Shown here: positions 3,814-34,758 of the stretch, one piece after another | How the letters are laid out: each line of letters starts with the position of its first letter | How positions within the stretch are numbered: position 1 is the first letter of the stretch | Virus record (IMG/VR): IMGVR_UViG_3300012205_000007 | Span: 1-34,797 of that record | Source of the DNA: a virus | DNA length: 34,797 nt | Reading direction: 5' to 3' (one strand) | Notes under the pieces: model-generated | Told to the model about the DNA's origin: nothing | The model's database searches: none | The model's input: the letters and a program-made list of their open reading frames with translations, nothing else | Translations under genes and position numbers: made by a program

Positions 3814-4395
3814 CTAAAAGATTGCAGTCTGACTATTTGATGTTATCACATCAGTACCATACAAATATATCTCTCCCAACTGTGACCAAGTGATATCACC
3901 ATTATTATCAGTCCATGCTAGCTTAAAGTAATTGTATCCAGCAGTTATGACACTTGGTGTATATGTACGCGTTTCATTTGCTATCCACCCAGTCTCTCCG
4001 GTGATAGTTGAAAGTACACTCCAAGTACTACCATCAGTTGATCCTGAGACTGTAAAATCCTTAATCGCTCTAGCAAAATCAGCCGGGCCACCTTTTAGAG
4101 CGAATGATGTTAGTTTCTTTCTAGCACTTGGGCCGATATAATACTGAATATAGCCAGAAGTACCAGCGAAAATAGCATAACTATCACCAAATCCCTCATC
4201 AAATGCATTGATTGATACAGCAAATACAAAATCAGGTGAATTAGTTACTCTATATGGACTATGATCCCAACAGTAACTTCCACAAGTAGATGTCCATCCT
4301 GCTCCTCCGGTTACTAGATGAAGCACAAAATCTGGGTCGCTCGCTGCGCTCGCGATAATAAAAGTAAGCCCAAGAAACAATAATTTCTTCATCAT
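3814..4395 (-). CDS. Secreted discoidin (F5/8 type C)-like protein
   Basis: A protein of about 193 residues that begins with a clear signal peptide (MMKKLLFLGLTFIIASAASD). I chose the ATG at 4395, which overlaps the preceding stop as TAATG. An in-frame ATG at 4407 would add four residues. The mature part resembles a galactose-binding-like/F5-8C domain: KDFTVSGSTDGSTWSVLSTI followed by a WTDNNGDITWSQLGEIYLYG-type ending is characteristic. These domains bind sugars or lipids. A signal peptide on a protein inside the virion operon is odd. It may be exported to the host surface, or the leader may anchor it. It lies downstream of the collagen-like gene and likely works with it. Confidence 0.72.
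   Translation of the reverse strand: MMKKLLFLGLTFIIASAASDPDFVLHLVTGGAGWTSTCGSYCWDHSPYRVTNSPDFVFAVSINAFDEGFGDSYAIFAGTSGYIQYYIGPSARKKLTSFALKGGPADFARAIKDFTVSGSTDGSTWSVLSTITGETGWIANETRTYTPSVITAGYNYFKLAWTDNNGDITWSQLGEIYLYGTDVITSNSQTAIF
4338..4354. repeat. Copy of dispersed GAGCG-GAGCG motif inside signal-peptide codons
   Basis: The minus strand reads CGCGAGCGCAGCGAGCG, the longest copy of the dispersed element. Here it encodes the Ala/Ser-rich cleavage region (IASAASD) of the signal peptide of the discoidin-like protein. It shows that the element can be used as coding sequence. Confidence 0.6.
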
Positions 4396-5555
4396 TATTG
4401 CTGGCATCCTAATTCAACTGTCACTCGCGTAACAGTAGTAATACTATCTACATTGTATCTGATTGTATCTCCTGCTGTTACAGAAGTAGTCCAGCCAGTT
4501 AACGTAGAGCTAGTGTTTTTTGTTGCAGAGGATAAAGTAGGCTTGGCGCTTGCCGTAATCGTATCTGCAATAGTTGGAGGATAATTAGCATAAGTATCCT
4601 TCCAGAGATCAATTACTATAGATCCAGATTGATCGGCTAGCAATGTCCAGCTAGTAATTGTGCAAGCAAATGGAATTTGCAAGTCTCCTTTTATACCTGT
4701 AGTTATTGCTAACCCACCACCATCAATAACAAATGGAATTGCCTTCAATAATCCTGGGCCACTTGGTCCTGCTGGTCCGCTCACTCCACTCGCGCCAGAT
4801 ACTCCAGATATTCCTGATACTCCTGAAGGTCCTGATGGTCCACTAGGTCCTGCTGCTCCTGATGGTCCAACTGATCCTGCTGCACCTGATACTCCTGATG
4901 GCCCGCTTGCTCCAGTAGGTCCAGTAAGAGATTTTCCTCCTACTGCTCTACGATCTACTCCAGATCCTGCCCATATTCCAGATGTAGAAGCCCATGTCCA
5001 TATTGGTATTGATGTACTTGGAAAGCTTGTTATTCCTGTTACACTTGTGCAGCCTGAGCATGTTACTACTTGAGTATTAGTTCCTACCGTTAGCACGCCA
5101 GCGCTAGTAATATATATATATGCAGTATCAGATCCTGTAGTAATAGTTGCAGTTGCTGGAGACATAAACGTATATATATTATTTCCAACATTAAAAGAAC
5201 ATGGCAGCGTAGCTGACGCGCCAGGGAAAATAGTCAATATCTTAGTAGTAGTCCTAACTACACTACATCCTCCTGATGCACCTGGAGTAATTGCATTTAC
5301 CAGGCTTGCACCATTTATTCCTCCAAGGAGAATCCAGTGATCAACAGAATCACACAAAAATATATCTGCCGTTGGACCTGCATAAGTTCTAACCCATATA
5401 TCTCCTCCACGTGGAGAGCATTTACTTGGTAAAACTGGACCAGTACCAATATGATATGCAGGCCCACCTTGCCCTTCGCTACGCTGAATGACAATTATGC
5501 TAGCCACTACTATACAAACAAAAGTAGTAAGACTAATTTGCCAGAATCGATACAT
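4395..5555 (-). CDS. Collagen-like adhesin/tail-fibre protein with membrane leader
   Basis: A 386-residue protein with four parts. Residues 5-24 form a hydrophobic leader or anchor (FWQISLTTFVCIVVASIIVI). Residues about 36-79 form a module (GPVLPSKCSPRGGDIW ... DSVDHWILLGG) shared with the leucine-rich-repeat protein at 6417-7412. Residues about 212-268 are Gly-X-Y repeats (GPSG/GVSG triplets, about 19) that would form a collagen-like triple helix. Residues 270-386 form a beta-rich C-terminal domain of a type often found at the end of phage collagen-like fibres. The ribosome-binding site AGGAGC lies eight bases before the ATG at 5555. A trimeric receptor-binding fibre is likely. The leader is unexpected for a virion protein. 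Confidence 0.78.
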   Translation of the reverse strand: MYRFWQISLTTFVCIVVASIIVIQRSEGQGGPAYHIGTGPVLPSKCSPRGGDIWVRTYAGPTADIFLCDSVDHWILLGGINGASLVNAITPGASGGCSVVRTTTKILTIFPGASATLPCSFNVGNNIYTFMSPATATITTGSDTAYIYITSAGVLTVGTNTQVVTCSGCTSVTGITSFPSTSIPIWTWASTSGIWAGSGVDRRAVGGKSLTGPTGASGPSGVSGAAGSVGPSGAAGPSGPSGPSGVSGISGVSGASGVSGPAGPSGPGLLKAIPFVIDGGGLAITTGIKGDLQIPFACTITSWTLLADQSGSIVIDLWKDTYANYPPTIADTITASAKPTLSSATKNTSSTLTGWTTSVTAGDTIRYNVDSITTVTRVTVELGCQQ

Positions 5556-6416: not shown

Positions 6417-7412
6417 TTAATTCGATGTAACTGTCCATCCACGACCAAGCAAAGTTGTCTCTGCTGCTAAAGTTGGAGCAGTCCATGTAGGATGAGCAGC
6501 ATTAGACCCAGTATCAAAATAAATACTTCCACCAGAATTACCGGCAGTAACTAGACTGATAAGTATATTGCCAATGCTGGGCTCATCGAGAGCACAATTA
6601 CTAAAGTCGATAAATGATAAATTAATATTAGTATCAAAAAATGACGGTGGTAAAGTAGTTAGCAGCGTTAAATTACGAGCTGAAAAGTTAATTAAATTGA
6701 TATTATTTGCTAACAATCCAGCTGGAAATGAGGTAAACAGATTATCATGTAGATTTAATCCCCTGAGAGCAACTTGATTATCCAGGAAACCAGATGGCAA
6801 CGTAGTAAGAGCATTCGTGTCAAGATCCAATATGACCAAGTTTACAAGATTGCTAATATTAGGTACTGAAGTAAGCTGGTCACTATATAAATATAGATTA
6901 GTTAGAGCAGTATTATGACTGAATATTCCTGCTGGTAGAGTAATAAGAGGATTCGCGCCAATATCCAAAGAAGCTAGAGCAATATTGTGATCAAATACTC
7001 CGGCAGGAAGAGTGCTTAAGTTATTAGCATAAAGATCCAGATCAGTTAGATTAGTAAGCTGATCAAATATCTTGCTTGGCAGACTAGATAGATTATTATC
7101 ATGTAGTCTAAGGATAGTTAAAAAACTCATTCCATTGAAACTACCAGCAGGAAGAGTAGTAATAGGCCAATCACTCAAAACTAGCGTAGAACCAACAATA
7201 GTACTCCGCTTGTCGAACAATGCTGAAAGAGCCAGAGGAGTATCAGCTACTGAGCCAAGTTCTTTCCAATGATTAGAAGAATCACTTATATGTAATGAAA
7301 CACCTTCTGCACTATTAACTTTTACAAATATATCAGCATCCTCTGGTTTACATTTATCAGGTAATCCAGGACCAGATAAGATCCTTCCTGCTGGCGTTCC
7401 TGTTATTGACAT
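6417..7412 (-). CDS. Leucine-rich-repeat adhesin-like protein
   Basis: A 331-residue protein. Residues about 10-53 (GPGLPDKCKPEDADIF ... DSSNHWKELGS) match the N-terminal module of the collagen-like protein. Residues about 75-290 contain roughly eight leucine-rich repeats of about 24 residues, consensus LxxLxLxxNxLxxLPxGxFxxxxx. The C-terminal end (GSNAAHPTWTAPT ... LLGRGWTVTSN) resembles caps seen on phage and bacterial LRR proteins. LRR domains are protein-binding solenoids, and here a host-recognition role is likely. Unlike its collagen-like partner it has no signal peptide. The start has a GAGAG ribosome-binding site. LRR proteins are uncommon in phage virion operons. Confidence 0.82.
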   Translation of the reverse strand: MSITGTPAGRILSGPGLPDKCKPEDADIFVKVNSAEGVSLHISDSSNHWKELGSVADTPLALSALFDKRSTIVGSTLVLSDWPITTLPAGSFNGMSFLTILRLHDNNLSSLPSKIFDQLTNLTDLDLYANNLSTLPAGVFDHNIALASLDIGANPLITLPAGIFSHNTALTNLYLYSDQLTSVPNISNLVNLVILDLDTNALTTLPSGFLDNQVALRGLNLHDNLFTSFPAGLLANNINLINFSARNLTLLTTLPPSFFDTNINLSFIDFSNCALDEPSIGNILISLVTAGNSGGSIYFDTGSNAAHPTWTAPTLAAETTLLGRGWTVTSN

Positions 7413-19723: not shown

Positions 19724-20158
19724 GTCTTTTTTGATCTTTTTCGAAAGTTTATTTGGCTTGTTTTCAAGCTCTTACCGAGAGTGGCTAGAGACTTGCTCAA
19801 AGTACTACCAGTACTAGGCTTGCTAGTCTTTGCTCGCATAAAGAAATTTATTTAAGAGAATTATGAATTTATTTAAGAGAATTATATTGGGAATTATTTA
19901 TAAGAGAATTATATTGTAGTTATTGCACTATGAATACATGAGCATACGCGAGCATGCATGTTCATGAAACCAGCTTGCAAATGGGATCTCCAAATTAAAT
20001 ATATTTCTATGTAGAATCAACAACTTAGCAACACAACTTCGTTGCAACTATAGTACAACCTCAAGCACTTTCTATACAACCCGAGTGACTAGTTGTACAT
20101 CATGTGATCATCAGGTGATAATCGGGTGAATTTCTAGGAGCCCAAAAATGGCTTAACT
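19724..20158. other. Divergent control region, non-coding
   Basis: No gene could be supported. It contains three direct AT-rich repeats (19845-19912), an imperfect palindrome around GAGCATACGCGAGCATGC (19937-19954), an inverted repeat GTACAAC/GTTGTAC (20053-20059 with 20092-20098), and spaced GTGAT words (20103-20128). This density of repeats in the only divergent gap points to a regulatory region flanking the candidate origin. Confidence 0.6.
19845..19912. repeat. Three direct repeats of AATTTATTTAAGAGAATTAT
   Basis: Copies at 19845-19864, 19866-19885 (identical over 20 bases) and 19892-19912 (two changes/one insertion). Starts are 21 and 26 bases apart, about two helical turns, which suits binding of a protein on one face of DNA or an AT-rich unwinding element. 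Confidence 0.75.
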
Positions 20159-20330
<172 letters not shown>

Positions 20331-21879: not shown

Positions 21880-22777
21880 ACCACATGAATATATAGCAGG
21901 CTTATTTGCTCAATGCCGTTTGTGCAAATTAGCTCAATCAAACAAGATTCATCAAAGTCAGATAGAACAGCCAGAGCAAGATATTAGTGAAGTCAGGCAA
22001 GCAAATGCTCATGAGCATACTTGCGTCATATGTGGGCGCAAGCACTACTGCGAGATTATCAATTGCACTATCCCAGCAAACTTCACATGTGACTGCAAAG
22101 AAGTCCCTGGATTTTCCTTACTTAACCAAGTCATAATAGCTAACTCTCAACCCATAATAAAATGCATAGGCCACACATGTGTACAATGCAAGAAAGTTTG
22201 GCTGCATGATTATCAGTGCAACAAGCCTGCCAATCTTGAGGCTTATTGCTCAAACTGCATAGCTCAAAACGCCATTGAGATTAATCGGCCAGATCTTATC
22301 AAAGAAATAGCCAATAATGGCCAGAACGCACTTTCTGGTGCAGAGCAAGCCGAGCTATTTCTTAATCATGAAGCGCAAGTCGATTTAATGATTCATGATT
22401 CTTCTGGTAATCTTCTCGAAAATTGGAATGGAATCATAGTCCAGCATTTAGAAGAGCTACGTAAGATTCAAGCAAAGATAAAGATTCATGAGCAGGCTAC
22501 TTCTAAGGTTAGAATAAAAACTTTAAGAGACGAGACAACGAAGTTGTCTCCTGAAGAGCAAGAGCAGTATAAGAGAGACGCTCTAAAGACAAAGAGGAAA
22601 TCTCAAGCTGCTAAGACTGATGAAGCAAAGAGGGCAGCATACAATAAAGCAATATCTGACTCAGTAAAAGTAATGGTGCAAGCCGGTATGAGCCATGATA
22701 AAGCGGAGAAGAGAGCAATCAAGATCCTTGGATCCTTCGATGCTGATTCGCTGTGCTCAGAAAAAGGATCAAACTAA
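21857..22777 (+). CDS. Cys-rich multi-zinc protein (306 aa)
   Basis: A 306-residue protein with a Cys-rich N-terminal half: CRLC (20-23), CVICGRKHYC, a region with CTIPANFTCDC, CVQC and CSNC, enough for at least three zinc sites. The C-terminal half is a long basic helix (LRKIQAKIKIHEQATSKVRI and KRDALKTKRKSQAAKTDEAK). AAGGAG precedes the ATG. The last base overlaps the helicase start (TAATG), so it is translationally coupled to the SNF2 helicase and may be its partner. No family recognised. Confidence 0.75.
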   Translation: MQNIDGTKPHEYIAGLFAQCRLCKLAQSNKIHQSQIEQPEQDISEVRQANAHEHTCVICGRKHYCEIINCTIPANFTCDCKEVPGFSLLNQVIIANSQPIIKCIGHTCVQCKKVWLHDYQCNKPANLEAYCSNCIAQNAIEINRPDLIKEIANNGQNALSGAEQAELFLNHEAQVDLMIHDSSGNLLENWNGIIVQHLEELRKIQAKIKIHEQATSKVRIKTLRDETTKLSPEEQEQYKRDALKTKRKSQAAKTDEAKRAAYNKAISDSVKVMVQAGMSHDKAEKRAIKILGSFDADSLCSEKGSN

Positions 22778-24351
22778 TGGCTAAGATAATTCATTACTGT
22801 CCAGTTTGCTCTAAGCCGGTTGATTTAATCTCTGAATCAAGAATCATGAATTTGATTCAGCGCCGCTTCGCGTGTGGTCATGTTCAATGCAAGAGTTTAA
22901 TTTCAAGCAGAGATTTCTCAAACTTTATCTCTGATGATTTCAAACGTCCATATCCATTTCAAGTGGAAGGAGCAGCATTCACACTAAATTCCGGTTCACG
23001 ATGCTTAATTATGGATGAAATGGGTCTTGGAAAAACTATTCAAGCCATCATGGTTGTTAGCAAGTTAAGGCAAGCCGATCCGAAGTTGAGATATTGTATT
23101 ATCTGCAAGAAAAAGCTCAAGATCCAAATGCTGCGTGAATTCGCTCGCTGGTCTAAAGATGAGTTCATCTCTCAGATCATAGAAAATGAGAATGACTTTA
23201 TCTCTCCTGCTGCTGGATTCATAATCTCCTATGATACTCTCTGGAGGTTTAAAGACATTCCAGACTTTGCAGCTAGAGCTAAGTTAGGAAGTGGAATATT
23301 AATTCTCGACGAAGTCCAGCATATTAAGAATAGTGCTGCAAAGAGAACTAATGGCGTTAGAGCGCTAAGCAGAGAAATGCAGTATTGCATAGCACTATCT
23401 GGAACTCCTATCAAGAATCATGCAGGTGAGTTCTTCCCAATCTTGAATATATTACGTCCTGACAGATATCACAACGCTTCGCAGTTTGAAGCATTAGAAT
23501 GCGTGCAATATAGATCGGGATATGGCTATAAAATCGGAGGATTGAAAGACGCAAAGGCATTTCATGAAAAGAATAAAGACTTCATTATTAGGCGTCTCAA
23601 GTCTGATGTTCTTCCTGACTTGCCTGCAATTTCAAGGGAGTTCATGTTTACAGAATTAGGAGATGATGTAGAAAAACTCTACGTTGAAGAATTAAAGAAG
23701 TTTCAGCAGTATTATTTATATGACTTGAATGGAAGTACTAATTTTCAAAAGCAATCAGAATTACTTGGCTACTTAAACAGAATGCGATCTCTCACAGGGA
23801 GAGCAAAAGTAGACATCGTAGCAGATTATCTCTTAGATTTCATTGAATCTTATGAAGATACTAAGGAAAAGATTGTAGTATTCTTGCATCATAAAGATGT
23901 CGCTAGCAGGCTTCTCAAGAAATTAGATGAATTAGGCTTGGCAAGCCAAACTGTATACTTATCAGCCGAAGCAGGATCTCAAGTTGTAGATCAATTTAAA
24001 GACAATCCGGCTTACAGGATCATGCTAGCCTCAACGCTAGCGGCAGGTGAAGGATTGAATCTACAATTCTGTAGCTTTTATATCATGATGGAACGTCAAT
24101 GGAATCCTGCTAATGAAGAGCAGCCTGAAGGTCGTTTTAGTAGACCAGGTCAAACAGCCAATAAAATAAAGGGGGTATACCCCACAGCAGTAGGAACTAT
24201 TGATGAGTTTTTAGCTGAAATAGTAGAGAAGAAAAGAGCAGTCTCTGCAAATGTATTAGACGCAAAAGAAGTAAATTGGAATGAATCTTCTATTATTCAA
24301 GAGCTAGCCGAAGTGCTAGCTACTACAGGAGGAAAGAGATGGGGATTCTAG
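22777..24351 (+). CDS. SNF2-family DEAD-like helicase/translocase
   Basis: A 524-residue superfamily-2 protein. I use the ATG at 22777 (TAATG overlap with AAAGGA upstream). Residues 8-38 form a zinc finger (CPVC, then CGHVQC). Motif I is DEMGLGKT (80-87), motif II LILDEVQHI (176-183; DEVQ in place of DEAH), motif III SGTPIKN (208-214), motif VI GRFSRPGQT (452-460). This is the SNF2/Swi2 pattern of ATP-dependent dsDNA translocases. Phage copies are often found beside replication genes, perhaps remodelling protein-DNA complexes. Confidence 0.92.
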   Translation: MAKIIHYCPVCSKPVDLISESRIMNLIQRRFACGHVQCKSLISSRDFSNFISDDFKRPYPFQVEGAAFTLNSGSRCLIMDEMGLGKTIQAIMVVSKLRQADPKLRYCIICKKKLKIQMLREFARWSKDEFISQIIENENDFISPAAGFIISYDTLWRFKDIPDFAARAKLGSGILILDEVQHIKNSAAKRTNGVRALSREMQYCIALSGTPIKNHAGEFFPILNILRPDRYHNASQFEALECVQYRSGYGYKIGGLKDAKAFHEKNKDFIIRRLKSDVLPDLPAISREFMFTELGDDVEKLYVEELKKFQQYYLYDLNGSTNFQKQSELLGYLNRMRSLTGRAKVDIVADYLLDFIESYEDTKEKIVVFLHHKDVASRLLKKLDELGLASQTVYLSAEAGSQVVDQFKDNPAYRIMLASTLAAGEGLNLQFCSFYIMMERQWNPANEEQPEGRFSRPGQTANKIKGVYPTAVGTIDEFLAEIVEKKRAVSANVLDAKEVNWNESSIIQELAEVLATTGGKRWGF

Positions 24352-26256: not shown

Positions 26257-26817
26257 ATGGGAACGATAGCAAGAAATCTTAATCAAAACCTGACTCTTTC
26301 TGAGCGTCTTAAGAGAAGAAAGGCTATTACTGAGAACGCTCTACTCTTAGATTGCTCAGGTTCTATGTCGGAGTTTTGCGACAACAAAACTACTAAGATT
26401 GAAGCATTAATGAGCATAGTTAAGAATCTAAATTGTAAGCATATTTACTCTTTTGCTTCTCACGCAAGAAAATTAGCAAGCAACAAAGATCATTTAGCAG
26501 CAGAAGGATTAACTAATCTATCACCTGCATTGAACTTGCTCAAAGCTGATAATCAAAAGTCAGCTATCATAATTACAGATGGAGATATATCAGACAAGTC
26601 TCTAGTCTTAGAGTTTATAGATGCGAATCCTGAGATCAAACTACAGATTATATATGTTGGCCCAGTTGATGATAAGCCTGATTTTCTGGACATCTTGGCG
26701 AAAAAGACGAATGGCTTTGTTACTGTTGAAGATTTGGCGTCTAATCTTCTAGAAGAGAAAATTAGACTACTGTTGAATCCTGCTGAAGACTCTCAAGAAA
26801 GGTCAATCCAGTTATGA
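26257..26817 (+). CDS. von Willebrand factor A domain protein with intact MIDAS
   Basis: A 186-residue protein made almost entirely of one VWA domain. The metal-ion-dependent adhesion site is complete: D32-x-S34-x-S36 in LLDCSGSMSEF, T86 in GLTNLSPA and D108 in IIITDGDIS. VWA domains bind partner proteins through the metal. AAAGGA is six bases before the ATG. It overlaps the next gene by ATGA and sits between the J-domain gene and the DHp-like gene, so a complex of these products is plausible. Confidence 0.85.
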   Translation: MGTIARNLNQNLTLSERLKRRKAITENALLLDCSGSMSEFCDNKTTKIEALMSIVKNLNCKHIYSFASHARKLASNKDHLAAEGLTNLSPALNLLKADNQKSAIIITDGDISDKSLVLEFIDANPEIKLQIIYVGPVDDKPDFLDILAKKTNGFVTVEDLASNLLEEKIRLLLNPAEDSQERSIQL

Positions 26818-27257
26818 TAAGTAAAGACGTTATCCATTTCTCAGCATATCTTATTGAGTATTTTAGACGTGCTAATCCAGCTATAGCAGAAGTAATTGCT
26901 AACAAGACTATAGAATATGTTGGTCAAGAAGAATTTGAGAGACTTGAAGAGGATACTTTAAACGCGGATAAACGTCGTCGAGCTGAGTACTTGATTAAAG
27001 AGCTTATGGGAGTACTAGCTAATGGAGTTCCACATAAATTAAATAATCTACTTATGATCACAATCGGAAAGTGTGATATGATTAGATCCGAGATGCTATC
27101 CGATACAACTGATTATAAGAGATTAAGTGAAGCAATTCAAGCTGCTGAGCAAGCTGCTCAGATAATCTTAACAATGCGATCTCATGCTAGAAATGGTATG
27201 ATAGATCCAGAACTGCTGCGAACAACAGAGTGGATGAAAGAAATGGGTATTGATTAG
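26814..27257 (+). CDS. Orphan histidine-kinase DHp-like domain protein (147 aa)
   Basis: A 147-residue helical protein. Residues 63-126 read like a histidine-kinase dimerisation/phosphotransfer domain: H74 in GVPHKLNNLLMITIGKCDMI compares with the usual GxAHDFNNLLTxIxGxxEL, and EAIQAAEQAAQIILTMRSHA with the second DHp helix. The residue after the His is Lys instead of Asp/Glu, and no ATPase (HATPase_c) domain follows, so it cannot phosphorylate by itself. It could accept or hold phosphoryl groups or bind host kinases. The N-terminal 60 residues are an unrecognised helical region. ATGA overlap with the VWA gene. Confidence 0.7.
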   Translation: MISKDVIHFSAYLIEYFRRANPAIAEVIANKTIEYVGQEEFERLEEDTLNADKRRRAEYLIKELMGVLANGVPHKLNNLLMITIGKCDMIRSEMLSDTTDYKRLSEAIQAAEQAAQIILTMRSHARNGMIDPELLRTTEWMKEMGID

Positions 27258-27288
27258 TAATTTTAATGGAGAAAATCTAAGGAGTAAT

Positions 27289-28167
27289 ATGCCGAACACT
27301 CAAGATGTAAACAATCAGGACAACAAAATATTTGCTCTATTTAAGGGGCCGAGCGGATCTGGCAAGTCTGTTGCAGGATTAAGCTTTCCTAACCTATATG
27401 TCTTTGATTATGATTTCAAGATGCCTGCTATTGCTCTCAAACATTTCCCTAAAAAGAGCATAGATTATGATACTTTTTCTGACACAGATCAAGTCTCAGA
27501 TATTATGGAGAAGTGGTTTAAATGTCCTATTTGTGGCTATGATAAATTATGTGAGAAAGACACTGGCAATCATTGTGGAACATCATGTCCATATGAGTCT
27601 CTCTTACATGATAGCTTGACAAACATGGAAAATCTAGTAGTCAAGACTATAGGAGAAGCAAAAGGTGAGCTTGTTCCTAAGTTAATCAAGAGTATGCTCA
27701 AAAGCAAAGGTAGTAAAAGCAACAAGACAGACATGATGGATTTTGATTACTACAAAGCAGAGATGAGGTTTACAGAATGGTTACTAATGCACAGCAAAAT
27801 CTTGCTAGCCAGAAAAGGTAATCCAAAGAATATCATCTTCACTGCTCATATCGTTTCTACTGAGAGCACAAATATTCTCACTGGACTGATAACAAAAACG
27901 CGAGCAATAGTAAGTCAAGGCAACAAGGTTGGCGCTTGGATTCCTACAGTATTTGATGAAGTATATATGTTTGGTTATCATCAAACTGGTGGTACAAGCA
28001 TTCAAGACCCAATCCGAACAGATAGGTTAGTACTAACAATCCCAACAGGAGAAGATGATGCTAAGACAGCTTATCGGCTTGCACCTAATATCGATTTTAC
28101 AGATAACAGTTTTTATGATCTACTGCAAGCGCAGATAAATGGTCAGAAATTCATGAGTTCTTTATGA
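27289..28167 (+). CDS. Sak4/RecA-like ATPase with zinc insertion
   Basis: A 292-residue P-loop ATPase. The ATG at 27289 has AAGGAG at ideal spacing; a TTG at 27250 is less likely. Walker A is GPSGSGKS (20-27), followed by LYVFDYDFKM as the first acidic strand, typical of Sak4-type single-strand annealing/RecA-core ATPases. Residues 79-100 hold a zinc-binding insertion (CPICGYDKLC, then HCGTSC) that is not usual in the family. It precedes an SSB-like gene, the common partner of Sak4. Probably promotes recombination or replication fork repair. Confidence 0.83.
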   Translation: MPNTQDVNNQDNKIFALFKGPSGSGKSVAGLSFPNLYVFDYDFKMPAIALKHFPKKSIDYDTFSDTDQVSDIMEKWFKCPICGYDKLCEKDTGNHCGTSCPYESLLHDSLTNMENLVVKTIGEAKGELVPKLIKSMLKSKGSKSNKTDMMDFDYYKAEMRFTEWLLMHSKILLARKGNPKNIIFTAHIVSTESTNILTGLITKTRAIVSQGNKVGAWIPTVFDEVYMFGYHQTGGTSIQDPIRTDRLVLTIPTGEDDAKTAYRLAPNIDFTDNSFYDLLQAQINGQKFMSSL

Positions 28168-28418: not shown

Positions 28419-28811
28419 ATGCCCATTAACGTTTCAATCAGCAAAGAGCAAATGCTCCAGACTAAGATAGTTCAACCTGGAGTATACGTACTTAACATAG
28501 CAGATGTGTACCAGCAGCCAGCCAAAACAGATCCTGATTCTATGACTAACGTAGTCAAGTTTATCATCGAATCAGGCCCTGATGCTTCCTCTATCGGCGT
28601 GCCAATCCTCTACTACATGGGAGAAAAACACATGGAATATCAGGTAGAGTTCTTACAGATAGCTTTCGGTAAGAAGCTTTCCACTGATGGTATTGCCAAT
28701 CTTGACATAGAGCTTTTGAAGGGACGAAAAATAAAGGCTTATGTCAAGAGTGGAAGATTTAATGGAAGAGACAAGAATGAGATTCAAGGGTTTATGCCCT
28801 TGACTTCTTAG
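28419..28811 (+). CDS. Putative single-stranded DNA-binding protein (OB-fold)
   Basis: A 130-residue protein: VQPGVYVLNIADVYQQPAKT then NVVKFIIESGPDASSIGVPI and a C-terminal VKSGRFNGRDKNEIQGFMPL. The PGxY...V...F.IxxG pattern resembles phage DUF669-type OB-fold proteins that bind ssDNA and accompany Sak4 ATPases. AAGAGGAAAAAGA precedes the ATG. It lacks the acidic tail of bacterial SSB; a separate acidic micro-protein follows at 28920. Confidence 0.68.
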   Translation: MPINVSISKEQMLQTKIVQPGVYVLNIADVYQQPAKTDPDSMTNVVKFIIESGPDASSIGVPILYYMGEKHMEYQVEFLQIAFGKKLSTDGIANLDIELLKGRKIKAYVKSGRFNGRDKNEIQGFMPLTS

Positions 28812-28919: not shown

Positions 28920-29027
28920 ATGCCGGACGAAGAGATCGAAGAATTAAATGAATTAGAGCCAACTGATGACGAAGAAGATGATGAAGAAGACGATAAAGAT
29001 GATGAATTAGAAGACACTGAGAAATAA
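28920..29027 (+). CDS. Highly acidic micro-protein (35 aa), DNA-mimic candidate
   Basis: MPDEEIEELNELEPTDDEED continues with runs of Asp/Glu to a Lys end: about 22 of 35 residues are acidic. AAAGGAGAAG is an excellent ribosome-binding site, which argues it is translated. It follows the SSB-like gene. Small acidic phage proteins often mimic DNA and inhibit host nucleases or act like the acidic SSB tail. Both are guesses here. Confidence 0.72.
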   Translation: MPDEEIEELNELEPTDDEEDDEEDDKDDELEDTEK

Positions 29028-29121: not shown

Positions 29122-30276
29122 ATGATTAATTTAATTCCAAAGAGAATAGAGCAAGTCGAGATTGATAATATTCTTTTACCTGATAATATTCCAAAATTAC
29201 TAAGAATAGATTTGGTTAAATCTAGAATGCCAATTATTAAAGATGACGGTCACATTATATATGGAGAAAACAAGATTGCTGCATACAAAAGTTTAGGTTA
29301 CAAAAAAATCGAATGTGCAATCTATCCATCAGATCTAGAACCAGAACAATACGATTTGATTAGATCTATAGAAAAGTTTAAAGAAGACCAAACATCTTGG
29401 CAAGCCAGAGTGAAGCTAGAGTTTGAGATTCATAGACTTTTTCAATCTCTTTATGGCGCAGGAAAGAGAGGCCGTGGGCACACGGGCTGGGGCATAAAAG
29501 ACACTGCCGCTCAACTAAACATATCAGTTGGCAAGCTGAATGAAGATGTCAATTTAGCAAAGGCTTTTTTAATAGATCCTGAATTAGAAAAATCAGCTAG
29601 CAGAGATATAGCAAAAAGAGTCTATGAAAAGGCATTCAAGCAAGTTATTTCTGAGTATTCTGCTGACAACTCAGTTCCTAAAATAGAACCAGACAGAGCA
29701 TTTTATGGCAAGCCTGAATTAATATTAAGAGAGCTTCCTGAAGATTGCTTTCATGCTGCTATCTTTGAGATTGACTTGCATTCAGATGAATGGCTAGCTG
29801 ATCTATTTGCTCAAGTTTATGACAAGCTGAGAAAAGATTCATTCTTCTATATTTTCTGCGATATTGATAACTTCAGCTCTTATAAGAATCTCCTGCTAGC
29901 CAGAAACTTCAAGGTTCAGGAATATCCATTAATTAGTTTGTTGAATATAGACAAGTTTAATTCACCAAAACCATGGCAATATACTCTAACATACGAATCT
30001 ATAATTGTAGCAGTCAATGGTGATCCTGCTCTATTAGATGGCAAAATTCACTTTTCAGCGTTTTCAGTAAGCAGCAGACAAAATACAGCCAAGATCTTAC
30101 TCAATCATAGCACTCAGCCCGAATCACTAATTCTTGGAAGCATGTTTATCATTCCAGCTTGCCAGGATTCAAACAGACATTTCATCACAATAGAAAAGGA
30201 CAAAAACAAATATGTACATGAATGCATAAAAAATAAATTAGATCCTCACCGAGATATGACTTATAAATTTACTTAA
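29122..30276 (+). CDS. ParB-like domain fused to an inactivated DNA methyltransferase-like domain
   Basis: A 384-residue protein. Residues 1-70 are ParB/sulfiredoxin-like (IIYGENKIAAYKSLGYKKIE), followed to about 175 by a KorB-type HTH region (GIKDTAAQLNISVGKLNEDV). Residues 190-370 align in pattern with N4/N6 DNA methyltransferases of phage ParB-methylase fusions (YDKLRKDSFFYIFCDIDNFS for a Rossmann strand-helix region, HFITIEKDKNKY at the end). The catalytic DPPY site reads FEIDLHS (215-221) and the SAM-binding DPFxGSG site reads LILGSMFIIP (336-345), so it is probably not an active methylase. AGG precedes the ATG. It may bind DNA or modified bases. Confidence 0.75.
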   Translation: MINLIPKRIEQVEIDNILLPDNIPKLLRIDLVKSRMPIIKDDGHIIYGENKIAAYKSLGYKKIECAIYPSDLEPEQYDLIRSIEKFKEDQTSWQARVKLEFEIHRLFQSLYGAGKRGRGHTGWGIKDTAAQLNISVGKLNEDVNLAKAFLIDPELEKSASRDIAKRVYEKAFKQVISEYSADNSVPKIEPDRAFYGKPELILRELPEDCFHAAIFEIDLHSDEWLADLFAQVYDKLRKDSFFYIFCDIDNFSSYKNLLLARNFKVQEYPLISLLNIDKFNSPKPWQYTLTYESIIVAVNGDPALLDGKIHFSAFSVSSRQNTAKILLNHSTQPESLILGSMFIIPACQDSNRHFITIEKDKNKYVHECIKNKLDPHRDMTYKFT

Positions 30277-30637: not shown

Positions 30638-30843
30638 ACAATAGACTAACTCAGGAAGAAATAGAGAAGTATACTTGGAGGGAAGCAGGTCATAAATATG
30701 TATGGAAGTGCTTAGAGACAGGTAATTTTCATTTTGAAAATGAAGCAAATATGCTCGATGAAACTGAATATGACTATTTAGATGAATGCATAGCAGCTCT
30801 CAATAAGTATGAGGAATATTTAAGTAATCAAAGAGATGCATGA
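30634..30843 (+). CDS. Small hypothetical protein (69 aa)
   Basis: MNNRLTQEEIEKYTWREAGH then EANMLDETEYDYLDECIAAL: acidic helical protein. AGAGG precedes the ATG, and ATGA overlap links it to the zinc protein before it. It overlaps the polymerase fusion by eight bases. Not recognised. Confidence 0.62.
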   Translation: MNNRLTQEEIEKYTWREAGHKYVWKCLETGNFHFENEANMLDETEYDYLDECIAALNKYEEYLSNQRDA

Positions 30844-33340
30844 CTCAATATATGTACCAGGTTTAGGAAATCCTGACGCTAAGCTGATGCTTATCGGGGA
30901 AGCTCCAGGTCAGCAGGAAGAGCTTGATAGAGAACCATTTAAAGGTGCATCTGGTGCTCTTGTTAATGAATGCCTAAGAGATGCGGGATATGATCGATCT
31001 TTGTGTTATATCACTAATGTATGTAAGATTAGGCCTCCAAATAATGATATCAATAAGCTAGAGTTAATTGGCCAAAAAATTGAAGATTTTTTGCCACAAT
31101 TATATGAAGAAATTACCACTATTAATCCGAATTGCATTTTGGCGATTGGTGACATCGCTCTGCGTTACGTTACTGGATTTAAAGGCATTAAGAAATATCG
31201 TGGATCGATACTCTCTGCTGAACGAACTGGCACTAAAACTATTGCAACATTGCACCCAGCATCTTTGCTTCATAACTCAGGAAGTAATACATTATCGTCT
31301 TGGAAAGAATTAAGTGTAATCAAGCATGATTTCGCTCGTGCTGTAGAACAAAGTACTTTTAGAGAAATCAAGCTGCCGAGTAGAAACTTATGGGTTGCTA
31401 GAAATTCTCTCGATGTTGTGCGTTTTTTAGAAAGAAATCAAGACAAAGAATACGTAGCTCTAGACGTAGAGACAATTAAAACTTATGCCCAATGTATTGG
31501 TTTATCTTTCAACGCAAATGAAGCTTGTAGCATACCTTTATTTCTTGATATCATCCCTAATCATGATCTTGCTTATATGTGGCGCATGCTATCTGATTTT
31601 CTTAGCGACACAAAGATTAAGATTATGGCTCAGAATGCTAAGTTCGATGAGAAAAGATGCCGTCAAATAGGTTTAAAATGGCATGGTTGCTATTTTGATA
31701 TGGCAATGGGCTGGCATATTTTATTCTCCGAACTCCCAAAAAGTTTACAGTTTATAAGTTCTTATATAACAGATGAGCCATATTATAAAGATGAAGGTAA
31801 AGAATTTAATCCAAAGATTCACAACATCGATCGATGGTTCTTATATAACGCTAAAGATGCAGCAGTTGAGTTCGAATGCTGCGAGAAGATTTTAGCGGCA
31901 TTAAAAGAAGAAGAACTCTATGAGTTCTTCTTTGATAAGATTATGCCATTGCATAGATTATATAGTGATATCGAAGATATAGGAATTTTGATTGACAAGA
32001 GGATTCGAGCAGATCTACGAAGAAAATATGAGCGGATTAGAGAAGCAAAGCAGGCAAGCCTGATTGAAAACATATCAAAAATGTATCAGCCAGATGATTC
32101 AATCAACCTGGAGATCTTTGGGTTGTATAAGAACTTTAATGTAATGAGTAATGGTCCTAAGAATCAGGTAGCTAAATTATTATATAGCTACCTAAAACTG
32201 CCAGTAAGAGGAGACACTAGCGATGAAACCCTCAAATCTCTTGCTAACAATAACTGTAAGGATCGTAGGAGAAGAGATATCTTACTTACTATCCTTGAAG
32301 TGCGAAAACTGCGGAAAACAATTGGAACATATATTGATGCAAAACTGTCCAATGATGGTAGAATCCATACCCAATGTAATATTAATGGTACAGAATCAGG
32401 TCGTACATCTACCGGAATACTCAAAGCACCAGTGTCAATAGTAAATGAAGGTATTGCACTTCAAACTATGACTAAGCATGAAGATATCCAGTTATCTGAT
32501 GCAGGTGGGGCTGATCTTCGTAGCATGTTTGTTGCTGATGAAAACTATAGCTTTATCGAGCCTGATCTTGCTCAGGCAGAGGATAGAGTAGTATGTGTGC
32601 TTGCTAAAGACTGGCAAGCTTTAAAGGAATACGAACGCACTGAATTTAACTACAATAAACATGGTATTAAAGATGATAAACATACAAAAACTGCAATGAT
32701 AGCTTGTGAGCTTGGATTTGATGCAATAACTGACTACGAGAGGCAAGCTGGCAAGAAAACTAAACATGCAATTAATTATGACATGAAGAAGCACATGCAT
32801 ATGCTCAATCTAGCTAAGTATGCTGGAATATATATCAGCGAGTGGAAAGCAGGCAAGCAGCTTGATTTAGTACATGCTGCCAACCCTAAAATAAGGCAAG
32901 TTTATCACGCTGAGATTCAAGAAGCTTTAAGAGATAATAATTGTGAATTAGTATCTCCACATGGGAGAAGAAGAATATTCTTGAATAAATGGGGAGATGA
33001 ACTATTCAAAGAGGCTTATGCTCATCTACCTCAATGTACTGTGAGCGATCAAGTTAAGTTTGCCATGATTAGAATCAAGAAGAGAATAAGAGAGCTTGCA
33101 GAAAGTTGCTTTTATTTTCTGCTTGAAAGTCATGATTCATTTTTAGCATTATGTCATGACTCAGTAAAAGATAAAGTCTATCCAATTATTAAAGAAGAAC
33201 TAGAAAAGCATATAGATTTTAATTCATGCACGCTAAGTAGGGATTATAAACTAGTCATCCCATGTGAAATATCAGTAGGCAAGCGATGGGTAAATTATTC
33301 AGAACAATTTCTAGATGGCATGAAAAAGATAAAGATATGA
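30836..33340 (+). CDS. Uracil-DNA glycosylase / 3'-5' exonuclease / family A DNA polymerase fusion
   Basis: An 834-residue three-domain protein. Residues 1-170: family 4/5-like uracil-DNA glycosylase, with GEAPGQQEE (21-29), YITNVCKIRPP (58-68) and a TLHPASLL ending (138-145). The Cys residues that bind the usual 4Fe-4S cluster are missing. Residues 185-360: DnaQ-like exonuclease, D210-x-E212 in ALDVETI, N267...D271, Y337-x3-D341. Residues 370-834: family A polymerase, motif A DLAQAEDR (577-584), motif B around GKKTKHAINYD (639-649; the usual Tyr-Gly reads Tyr-Asp), motif C SHDSF (765-769). Replicative polymerase with built-in uracil repair or sensing. Confidence 0.88.
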   Translation: MHDSIYVPGLGNPDAKLMLIGEAPGQQEELDREPFKGASGALVNECLRDAGYDRSLCYITNVCKIRPPNNDINKLELIGQKIEDFLPQLYEEITTINPNCILAIGDIALRYVTGFKGIKKYRGSILSAERTGTKTIATLHPASLLHNSGSNTLSSWKELSVIKHDFARAVEQSTFREIKLPSRNLWVARNSLDVVRFLERNQDKEYVALDVETIKTYAQCIGLSFNANEACSIPLFLDIIPNHDLAYMWRMLSDFLSDTKIKIMAQNAKFDEKRCRQIGLKWHGCYFDMAMGWHILFSELPKSLQFISSYITDEPYYKDEGKEFNPKIHNIDRWFLYNAKDAAVEFECCEKILAALKEEELYEFFFDKIMPLHRLYSDIEDIGILIDKRIRADLRRKYERIREAKQASLIENISKMYQPDDSINLEIFGLYKNFNVMSNGPKNQVAKLLYSYLKLPVRGDTSDETLKSLANNNCKDRRRRDILLTILEVRKLRKTIGTYIDAKLSNDGRIHTQCNINGTESGRTSTGILKAPVSIVNEGIALQTMTKHEDIQLSDAGGADLRSMFVADENYSFIEPDLAQAEDRVVCVLAKDWQALKEYERTEFNYNKHGIKDDKHTKTAMIACELGFDAITDYERQAGKKTKHAINYDMKKHMHMLNLAKYAGIYISEWKAGKQLDLVHAANPKIRQVYHAEIQEALRDNNCELVSPHGRRRIFLNKWGDELFKEAYAHLPQCTVSDQVKFAMIRIKKRIRELAESCFYFLLESHDSFLALCHDSVKDKVYPIIKEELEKHIDFNSCTLSRDYKLVIPCEISVGKRWVNYSEQFLDGMKKIKI

Positions 33341-33510: not shown

Positions 33511-33549
33511 TCATCTTCTTCTTCGCCCAGATTGAGAAAGATCCATAAA

Positions 33550-34758
33550 ATGCATTTCTTAGAACGTGTGGCTAGTGCTTACAGCATGTCTGAAGCACCA
33601 GCGAGATTCTATTATTGGGCAGCCGCTACTGCTCTAGCATCAACAGTTCGTAAAAATGTTTTCATTGATCGTGGAGGAGTTTTTAGACAATATGCAAACA
33701 TATATGTGTTTATAGTTGGAAGATCAGGCATAAGAAAAGGCATCCCTGTGAGTGTAGGCAGAGTTTTGGCAGAGAAAACTGATAATACGAGAATTGTATC
33801 AGGCCGAACTAGCTTCCAAAAGATGATTCAAGATTTAGGTAAAGCTAAATCTCTAGAAAATGGCCGAGTTTTAAAAGAGGCTCATGCATTGATAGTAACA
33901 GGTGAGTTATCTTCTCTGTTAATCAAAGATCCAGATGCATTAAATGTACTGATAGATATATTCAATACTCATGAACATGAGAAAGAATGGATAAACACAT
34001 TAAAGAGCACTAATACAGATGTCTTAAAGAGTCCATGCATAAGTCTGCTAGCTGCTACCAATGAAGAATTATTCTCAGAGACAGTACAAAGTAAAGATGT
34101 CCATGGTGGATTCATTGCTAGAACATTCATCATATATTCAAATGATGCAGCCTGTATCAATCCATTAACTAGAAAAAATGGCAATCCGCCAAATCTAGAC
34201 GATTTGGCGCAGTATCTCAAAGATATAAAAGACGTAAAGGGAGAGTTCCAGTGGACTGATGAAGCAATGGTTATATACGAACAATGGTATGATGACTTGA
34301 AAACTAAATTACAAAATCGATCATTATTTGATCCAACAGGAACTTACGAAAGACTTGGAGATCAGGTAATCAAACTAGCAATGATCATATCATTAGCATA
34401 TGATGACTCTCTGTTAATTAAAGCTATTCACATAGAGGAGGCAATGAACGAATGTGAGCTATGCTGTCAAGGTATGAAGCAACTTACTTTAGGTCACGGG
34501 AAAAATAAATCTAATGAAGGTTCTTGTATGAGAATGATTATCAAAGCACTTATAGATATCCCAGATCACAAGATGACTAGAGAGCAATTGCTTTCTCGAT
34601 ATTGGGGAGATATTAGCGTGTTTGATATAGACAGGATAGCGGAGACAATGCAAGCCGCTGGTGCTATTGATATTAAAGTTAATGGCAGAAATTATACTTA
34701 CGCCCTAAAGCCAAGTGCGTTAGATCTGTATGTGAACTTCAAGACTCAGATTTTTTAG
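33550..34758 (+). CDS. DUF3987-like DNA helicase/primase-type protein
   Basis: A 402-residue protein from the ATG at 33550; an in-frame TTG at 33532 is possible. The opening (ERVASAYSMSEAPARFYYWA) and the following Walker-like site match DUF3987 proteins found with phage and plasmid replication genes. The P-loop reads VGRSGIRKGIPV (G57 to K63): the Ser/Thr after the Lys is Gly, so ATP binding may be altered. HALIVTGELSSLL (Walker-B-like) and SLLAATNEELF follow. The C-terminal 100 residues look like a winged helix (MTREQLLSRYWGDISVFDID). Possibly the replicative helicase. Confidence 0.72.
   Translation: MHFLERVASAYSMSEAPARFYYWAAATALASTVRKNVFIDRGGVFRQYANIYVFIVGRSGIRKGIPVSVGRVLAEKTDNTRIVSGRTSFQKMIQDLGKAKSLENGRVLKEAHALIVTGELSSLLIKDPDALNVLIDIFNTHEHEKEWINTLKSTNTDVLKSPCISLLAATNEELFSETVQSKDVHGGFIARTFIIYSNDAACINPLTRKNGNPPNLDDLAQYLKDIKDVKGEFQWTDEAMVIYEQWYDDLKTKLQNRSLFDPTGTYERLGDQVIKLAMIISLAYDDSLLIKAIHIEEAMNECELCCQGMKQLTLGHGKNKSNEGSCMRMIIKALIDIPDHKMTREQLLSRYWGDISVFDIDRIAETMQAAGAIDIKVNGRNYTYALKPSALDLYVNFKTQIF

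Follow-up and report, generated by a model that had tools for sequence, protein, structure and literature searches.

What remains of the function of a ParB-methyltransferase fusion when the sites for its chemistry are gone? This question is raised by a gene in the virus record IMGVR_UViG_3300012205_000007 (IMG/VR), of which we analysed positions 1 to 34,797 (34,797 nucleotides, hereafter the window). The gene (29122..30276, + strand) starts with ATG, encodes 384 amino acids and is preceded, approximately 8 nt upstream of the start codon, by a weak SD-like AGTAGG. Its frame contains no stop along the full length, both halves show normal codon usage, and the remaining two forward frames of the interval contain many stops and no hidden motifs. 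A frameshift or sequencing artefact is ruled out by the open frame, the normal codon usage and the lack of motifs in the other frames. The gene occupies the same slot as in related phages, within a replication module ordered Sak4, SSB-like protein, ParB-methyltransferase, PolA-type polymerase and DUF3987. Upstream lie a Sak4-like recombinase ATPase (27250..28167, +; phrog_124 1e-11; AAA_24) and a small protein of 130 amino acids (28419..28811, +), assigned to the SSB position by its location only and found in the same slot in the phage loci L088, L191 and L192. Downstream are the PolA-type DNA polymerase (30836..33340, +; phrog_17 1e-65), with an N-terminal part that by eye is UDG-like, and a DUF3987/primase-helicase-like protein (33532..34758, +). 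The polymerase served as the yardstick for divergence between phages.

A Pfam search with the window protein gave only N6_N4_Mtase (PF01555), at 22.5 bits and below the gathering cut-off of 26.7; intact relatives reach 73-95 bits and match ParB_N in addition. A profile built from intact homologues only matches the window protein at E 3e-51. Weak tblastn matches led to Microcystis phage Mel-JY34, ctMlz233 and a Desulfofustis phage, in all three of which a ParB-methylase immediately precedes the DNA polymerase, and these fusions (XAI96472.1, UOF77827.1 and WBK39746.1, respectively), as well as that of locus L162, share with the window protein the domain order, the slot and the predicted fold at approximately 20-32% identity over the full length. 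By these comparisons, full-length homology to ParB-methyltransferase fusions in the same module slot can be regarded as secure, and an earlier sequence-only reading, which had placed such a fusion at 29122-30276, was right in both family and coordinates.

The structure of the C-terminal domain was assessed by AlphaFold. With an alignment of 75 sequences the whole chain was modelled at a pLDDT of 89.5, compared with 37 for the single sequence without homologues. In the model, residues 188-373 superpose on CcrM with a Z of 22.3 and an rmsd of 2.2 over 184 residues, and M.MboIIA and M1.HpyAVI were also found as structural matches of this part. We are thus confident in the prediction that this domain has the beta-class methyltransferase (MTase) fold, with the motif order IV-X-I of these three enzymes; unlike them, however, the window protein lacks the catalytic and most of the SAM-binding loops. 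Since the model was built on intact homologues, it demonstrates compatibility of the sequence with the fold and says nothing on a working pocket. Profile comparison and structure prediction, the checks proposed with the sequence-only reading, hence returned the expected fold, and neither of the two outcomes named as fatal to it was found: a different C-terminal fold is ruled out by the profile match and the predicted structure, and a circular permutation with relocated motifs by the absence of [DNS]PP[YFWH], FxGxG and GxGxG anywhere in the chain.

In order to place the motif losses in the family, we scanned IMG/VR with profiles of the window protein and of the polymerase, which yielded 118 distinct sequences of full length; dereplication left 101, the window included. 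As strict motif regular expressions undercount intact relatives, we used column-based counts. The window protein breaks 12 of the 24 columns that are conserved in at least 90% of members, and the breaks fall in both domains; the second most affected member breaks 4, and the median of the family is 1. Known fusions keep D[PF]P[YWF] (with rare DPLW, DPQY and DPDY), motif X, a PFxGxG-like motif I, GxxR and ENxxR, whereas in the window protein all five are lost or altered.

In the methylase domain the losses are mainly deletions. Compared with L162, three in-frame pieces are missing, DPPWLEFK (8 residues), HPNEKPVSILEK (12) and DPFG (4), and they correspond to the catalytic loop (motif IV), motif X and the front of motif I, i.e., three loops that line the pocket. 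These deletions agree across MAFFT modes and the intact-only HMM, and within the clade at most 6 of the columns that are usually occupied are empty in any one member. The 8-residue deletion follows residue 215, and in strict register the DPPW/DPPY position would be occupied by E216-I217-D218-L219 (EIDL, 29767..29778, +), so motif IV is either replaced by EIDL or deleted. The motif X deletion lies at the junction of residues 325/326 (30094..30099, +). LGSM (residues 338-341; 30133..30144, +) is what remains of motif I DPFxGSG, and from the SAM site formed by HPxEKP and DPFxGSG only G339-S340 are kept. Further substitutions are W272S, K274L and a change of GDS to GKP with K197 (29710..29712, +); GDS itself is not invariant in the family, being present in most relatives and replaced by GGS/GGA in L162 and L167. 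The glutamate at the end of beta-2, E358 (30193..30195, +), is retained, and it is equivalent to the SAM-ribose-binding E216 of M1.HpyAVI. In that enzyme D29 of DPPY and E216 are essential for SAM binding, Asp8, at the position of K197, contacts the SAM adenine, G197 is crucial and S198 contacts the SAM carboxylate (the last two corresponding to G339-S340), and alanine mutants of the equivalent Asp bind no SAM (PMC5173035). Weak binding of SAM or SAH thus remains conceivable given G339-S340 and E358.

The ParB domain is affected as well. Its CTP/phosphate site GxxR is replaced by GENK (residues 48-51; 29263..29274, +), with a lysine in place of an arginine invariant in the 100 other members, and ENxxR by EKFKE (residues 84-88; 29371..29385, +), although N and R are 100% conserved in those members. 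The GERR and ENxxR motifs of ParB-type CTPase clamps are therefore absent. In Streptomyces coelicolor ParB, CTP binding requires GERR and is lost in GERR variants (PMC12207404), and in Bacillus subtilis ParB, E111NLQR forms part of the CTP pocket; PadC, however, still binds CTP without ENLQR (PMC8494293). As judged from these residues, the window protein has very probably given up the CTP switch of ParB. The family profile matches the N-domain structures of Noc and ParB (7nfu, 1vz0, 6sdk), and the window protein shares with ParB/Noc/KorB clamps the order of a ParB domain followed by a helix-turn-helix (HTH); it differs in the replaced CTP-site residues and at the C-terminus, where a methylase-like domain takes the place of the ParB dimer domain. 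An apparent 14-residue deletion in the ParB domain was rejected as an alignment artefact, as MPIIKDDGHIIYG matches HPPLIKDDLTVIAG almost without gaps.

These results modify the sequence-only reading in several points. The proposed loss of catalytic and SAM motifs holds for motifs IV, X and most of I, but it overstated the damage to the SAM site, where E358 and G339-S340 remain. FEIDLHS and LILGSMFIIP do mark motif positions from which the motifs are absent, but the motifs were mostly deleted (8, 12 and 4 residues) and not overwritten. The G-E-N pattern described for the ParB N-terminus is literally present, but its invariant Arg is Lys, ENxxR reads EKxxE and the CTP-site residues are lost. The alignment of homologues, proposed as a check of whether the loss is conserved, showed that it is not: among the 101 dereplicated members only the window is affected, and by the column counts the motif loss is lineage-specific. 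No second member with both losses was found in profile scans of viral contigs and genome contigs, which may not have covered records nearly identical to the window.

By polymerase identity the nearest phages are L192 (58%), which has no methylase in this slot, and L191/L162 (57%), where the slot holds an intact methylase. In the tree the window protein is sister to the intact L162 protein (SH-aLRT 93) on the longest branch of all (1.82 changes per site, median 0.32). The ParB-methylase is patchily missing from the otherwise conserved module, e.g., at loci L088, L192, L095 and L120, and among 217 polymerase loci whose upstream sequence was long enough (overlapping loci counted), 57 gave no family match. 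Partly altered motifs also occur elsewhere: DPLW with GSF in L083 (4291-5550), DPQY with GSFS in L144 (3876-5222) and L149 (4239-5558), an altered motif IV, DPDY, in L158 (4209-5594) and an altered motif I, SPFLGSG, in L004 (3869-5161). These may possibly be independent steps toward a changed or lost activity.

Is the divergence uniform along the protein? Whole-protein identity between the window and L162 is 0.315, while other pairs at polymerase identity 0.56-0.62 have 0.51 (minimum 0.44, n = 71). We therefore compared segment identities with those in 80 phage pairs at polymerase identity 0.55-0.62. For the ParB_N, linker, post-HTH, motif IV, YIFC, TRD and X+I segments, 0 or 1 of the 80 pairs are lower than window-L162, which puts these segments at the very bottom; the post-I segment, with 7 of 80 lower, comes close to it. 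The only segment at a normal rate is the central HTH DNA-binding domain (residues 121-154; 29482..29583, +), with an identity of 0.59 compared with a mean of 0.54 and 47 of the 80 pairs lower; it is, however, a short segment of 34 residues. This domain is present both by sequence and in the predicted structure (helices 125-132 and 136-151). Its profile score keeps 77% of the clade score and is the top one among sequences outside the clade, whereas motif IV, TRD and X+I keep none of theirs and the catalytic segments score at or below 0. Ordinary constraint on the HTH, and its lack in the base-flipping and target-recognition parts, points to plain sequence-specific DNA binding. A search for iterated sites that the HTH might recognise turned up no clear binding site.

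The window protein is a pseudoenzyme derived from an already known fusion type. The explanation that we consider reasonably probable is a lineage-specific one, in which a former ParB-(N6/N4) methylase fusion no longer methylates and has been kept as a cofactor-independent DNA-binding protein. In-frame loss of motif IV, motif X and most of motif I would have abolished methylation, the substituted invariant ParB residues would very probably leave the CTP switch unused, and the Rossmann fold of the MTase, as predicted, would be kept as a scaffold. On this scaffold the protein, probably dimeric, may use its HTH to bind phage sites close to the replication genes and may serve there as a cofactor-free transcription factor or replication-site factor, with the DNA binding of its parent retained and the chemistry dropped. 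A narrower version, to which we give slightly less than an even chance, is that both cofactor sites were shed at once and that the protein survives as a DNA-binding factor of the replication module, a METTL14-like phage pseudo-methylase without an active partner.

The alternative that needs the most attention, although we consider it unlikely, is that the need for methylation was lost and that the gene is relaxed and drifting toward the absence seen in L192 and L088. These two phages do without the gene, which shows that it is dispensable and makes relaxed selection plausible; the patchy absence at the 57 of 217 loci, which include L088, and in the close relative L192, and the accelerated divergence across almost the whole protein, agree with this. 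However, given the window's base composition, 5.5% of random changes in 29122-30276 create a stop, so that under neutral drift a stop is 95% certain after approximately 55 changes (0.048 per site). The probability that 12 of 24 conserved sites are struck within approximately 55 neutral changes is about 1e-6, or about 2e-3 for 8 or more when deletions are counted once (approximately 9 events). The losses are thus improbable before the first stop, and the divergence accumulated with the frame under selection. By this estimate simple neutral decay cannot account for the open frame, as drift beyond approximately 0.05 changes per site, far below what the losses need, would yield a stop; divergence before and after the loss of activity is inseparable in a single sequence, and one sequence with these losses allows no dN/dS measure of constraint after the loss. 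The normal codon usage, the concentration of in-frame indels on the pocket loops and the ordinary constraint on the HTH also speak against decay. The earlier suggestion of a preserved fold used for something other than methylation thus gains support from the predicted fold, the missing catalytic loops and a frame kept open beyond what drift permits.

Three further explanations assign the protein another activity. It might be a non-catalytic reader or decoy, the dead fold binding methylated or restriction-target DNA or sequestering host restriction enzymes, as proposed in the sequence-only reading and as the MTase-like fold and the residual ribose-binding Glu would allow; but its most diverged parts include the regions of target recognition, the catalytic loop and motif X, by eye it has no acidic DNA-mimic features, and the gene still sits between the SSB-like protein and the polymerase, so we find this improbable. 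A partnership of the METTL14 kind, with a dead subunit that forms a heterodimer with an active methylase and holds the DNA in position, is quite improbable. The broad Rossmann MTase fold is common to the METTL3/METTL14 and MTA1 complexes, the dimeric methyltransferase EcoP15I methylates one strand only (PMC4490356), and METTL14, with EPPL where METTL3 has DPPW, is inactive and yet needed for RNA binding (PMC5023411). However, the window record encodes no second N6/N4 methylase (a PF01555 search, which does not reach other MTase families, gave no other match) and related phages have exactly one or none, so any partner would need to come from the host or from a part of the record that is missing. 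Residual or altered enzyme activity, in which a remodelled pocket binds SAM/SAH or another nucleotide and works beyond the known motifs, is highly improbable: G339, S340 and E358 are kept and D to E in motif IV would be conservative by strict register, but the protein has lost the aromatic stacking residue, both prolines, the His of motif X and most of the loop of motif I.

For the preferred reading, a DNA-binding pseudoenzyme, METTL14 is still an instructive precedent, being a protein with a degenerate DPPW that keeps the MTase fold for nucleic-acid binding and scaffolding; the window protein, by its predicted structure, likewise combines an MTase fold with a degenerate catalytic motif. The likeness is one of working and implies no common family: METTL14 belongs to the eukaryotic MT-A70 family and has METTL3 as an obligate partner, while the window record encodes no active partner. 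In one known ParB-adenine methylase fusion enzyme the ParB domain reportedly nicks DNA non-specifically; both of its domains are active, unlike those of the window protein, and the two are likened by description only.

The loss of both cofactor sites with the HTH spared, which was absent from the sequence-only reading, is the most informative point of this locus. ParB-methylase fusions are common in the module, and the literature searched leaves undecided whether their job is methylation, CTP-driven clamping or DNA binding. A natural variant without both chemistries, in which only the HTH is under normal constraint, separates these possible roles. Continued binding of this variant to the origin or promoters of the phage would make DNA binding the core function of the family, and the protein would add a prokaryotic-virus case to the few pseudo-methyltransferases retained for nucleic-acid binding.

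Several other features of the window were observed. An SNF2-family helicase gene (22753-24351, +) is present in 14 of the 15 related phage records checked; its presence in the methylase-less L088 led us to reject a methylase-helicase dyad. Upstream of Sak4, a VWA-like protein (26257-26817, +) overlaps the start of a 147-amino-acid protein (26814-27257, +). Just 5' of the pseudo-methylase gene, at approximately 28938-29010 (+), there is a coding-like, strongly acidic, DDEEDD-rich repeat stretch, and L088 has an acidic ORF in the matching slot. The structural arm encodes a leucine-rich-repeat protein (6417-7412, −; LRR_8 E 5e-30) adjoined by a collagen-repeat tail-fibre-like protein (4395-5555). 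Between the divergent gene arms lie three near-tandem AT-rich repeats of approximately 22 nt each (19843-19912) and a long TA-rich palindrome (20223-20260), which together make the 19843-20260 region a candidate origin or control region.
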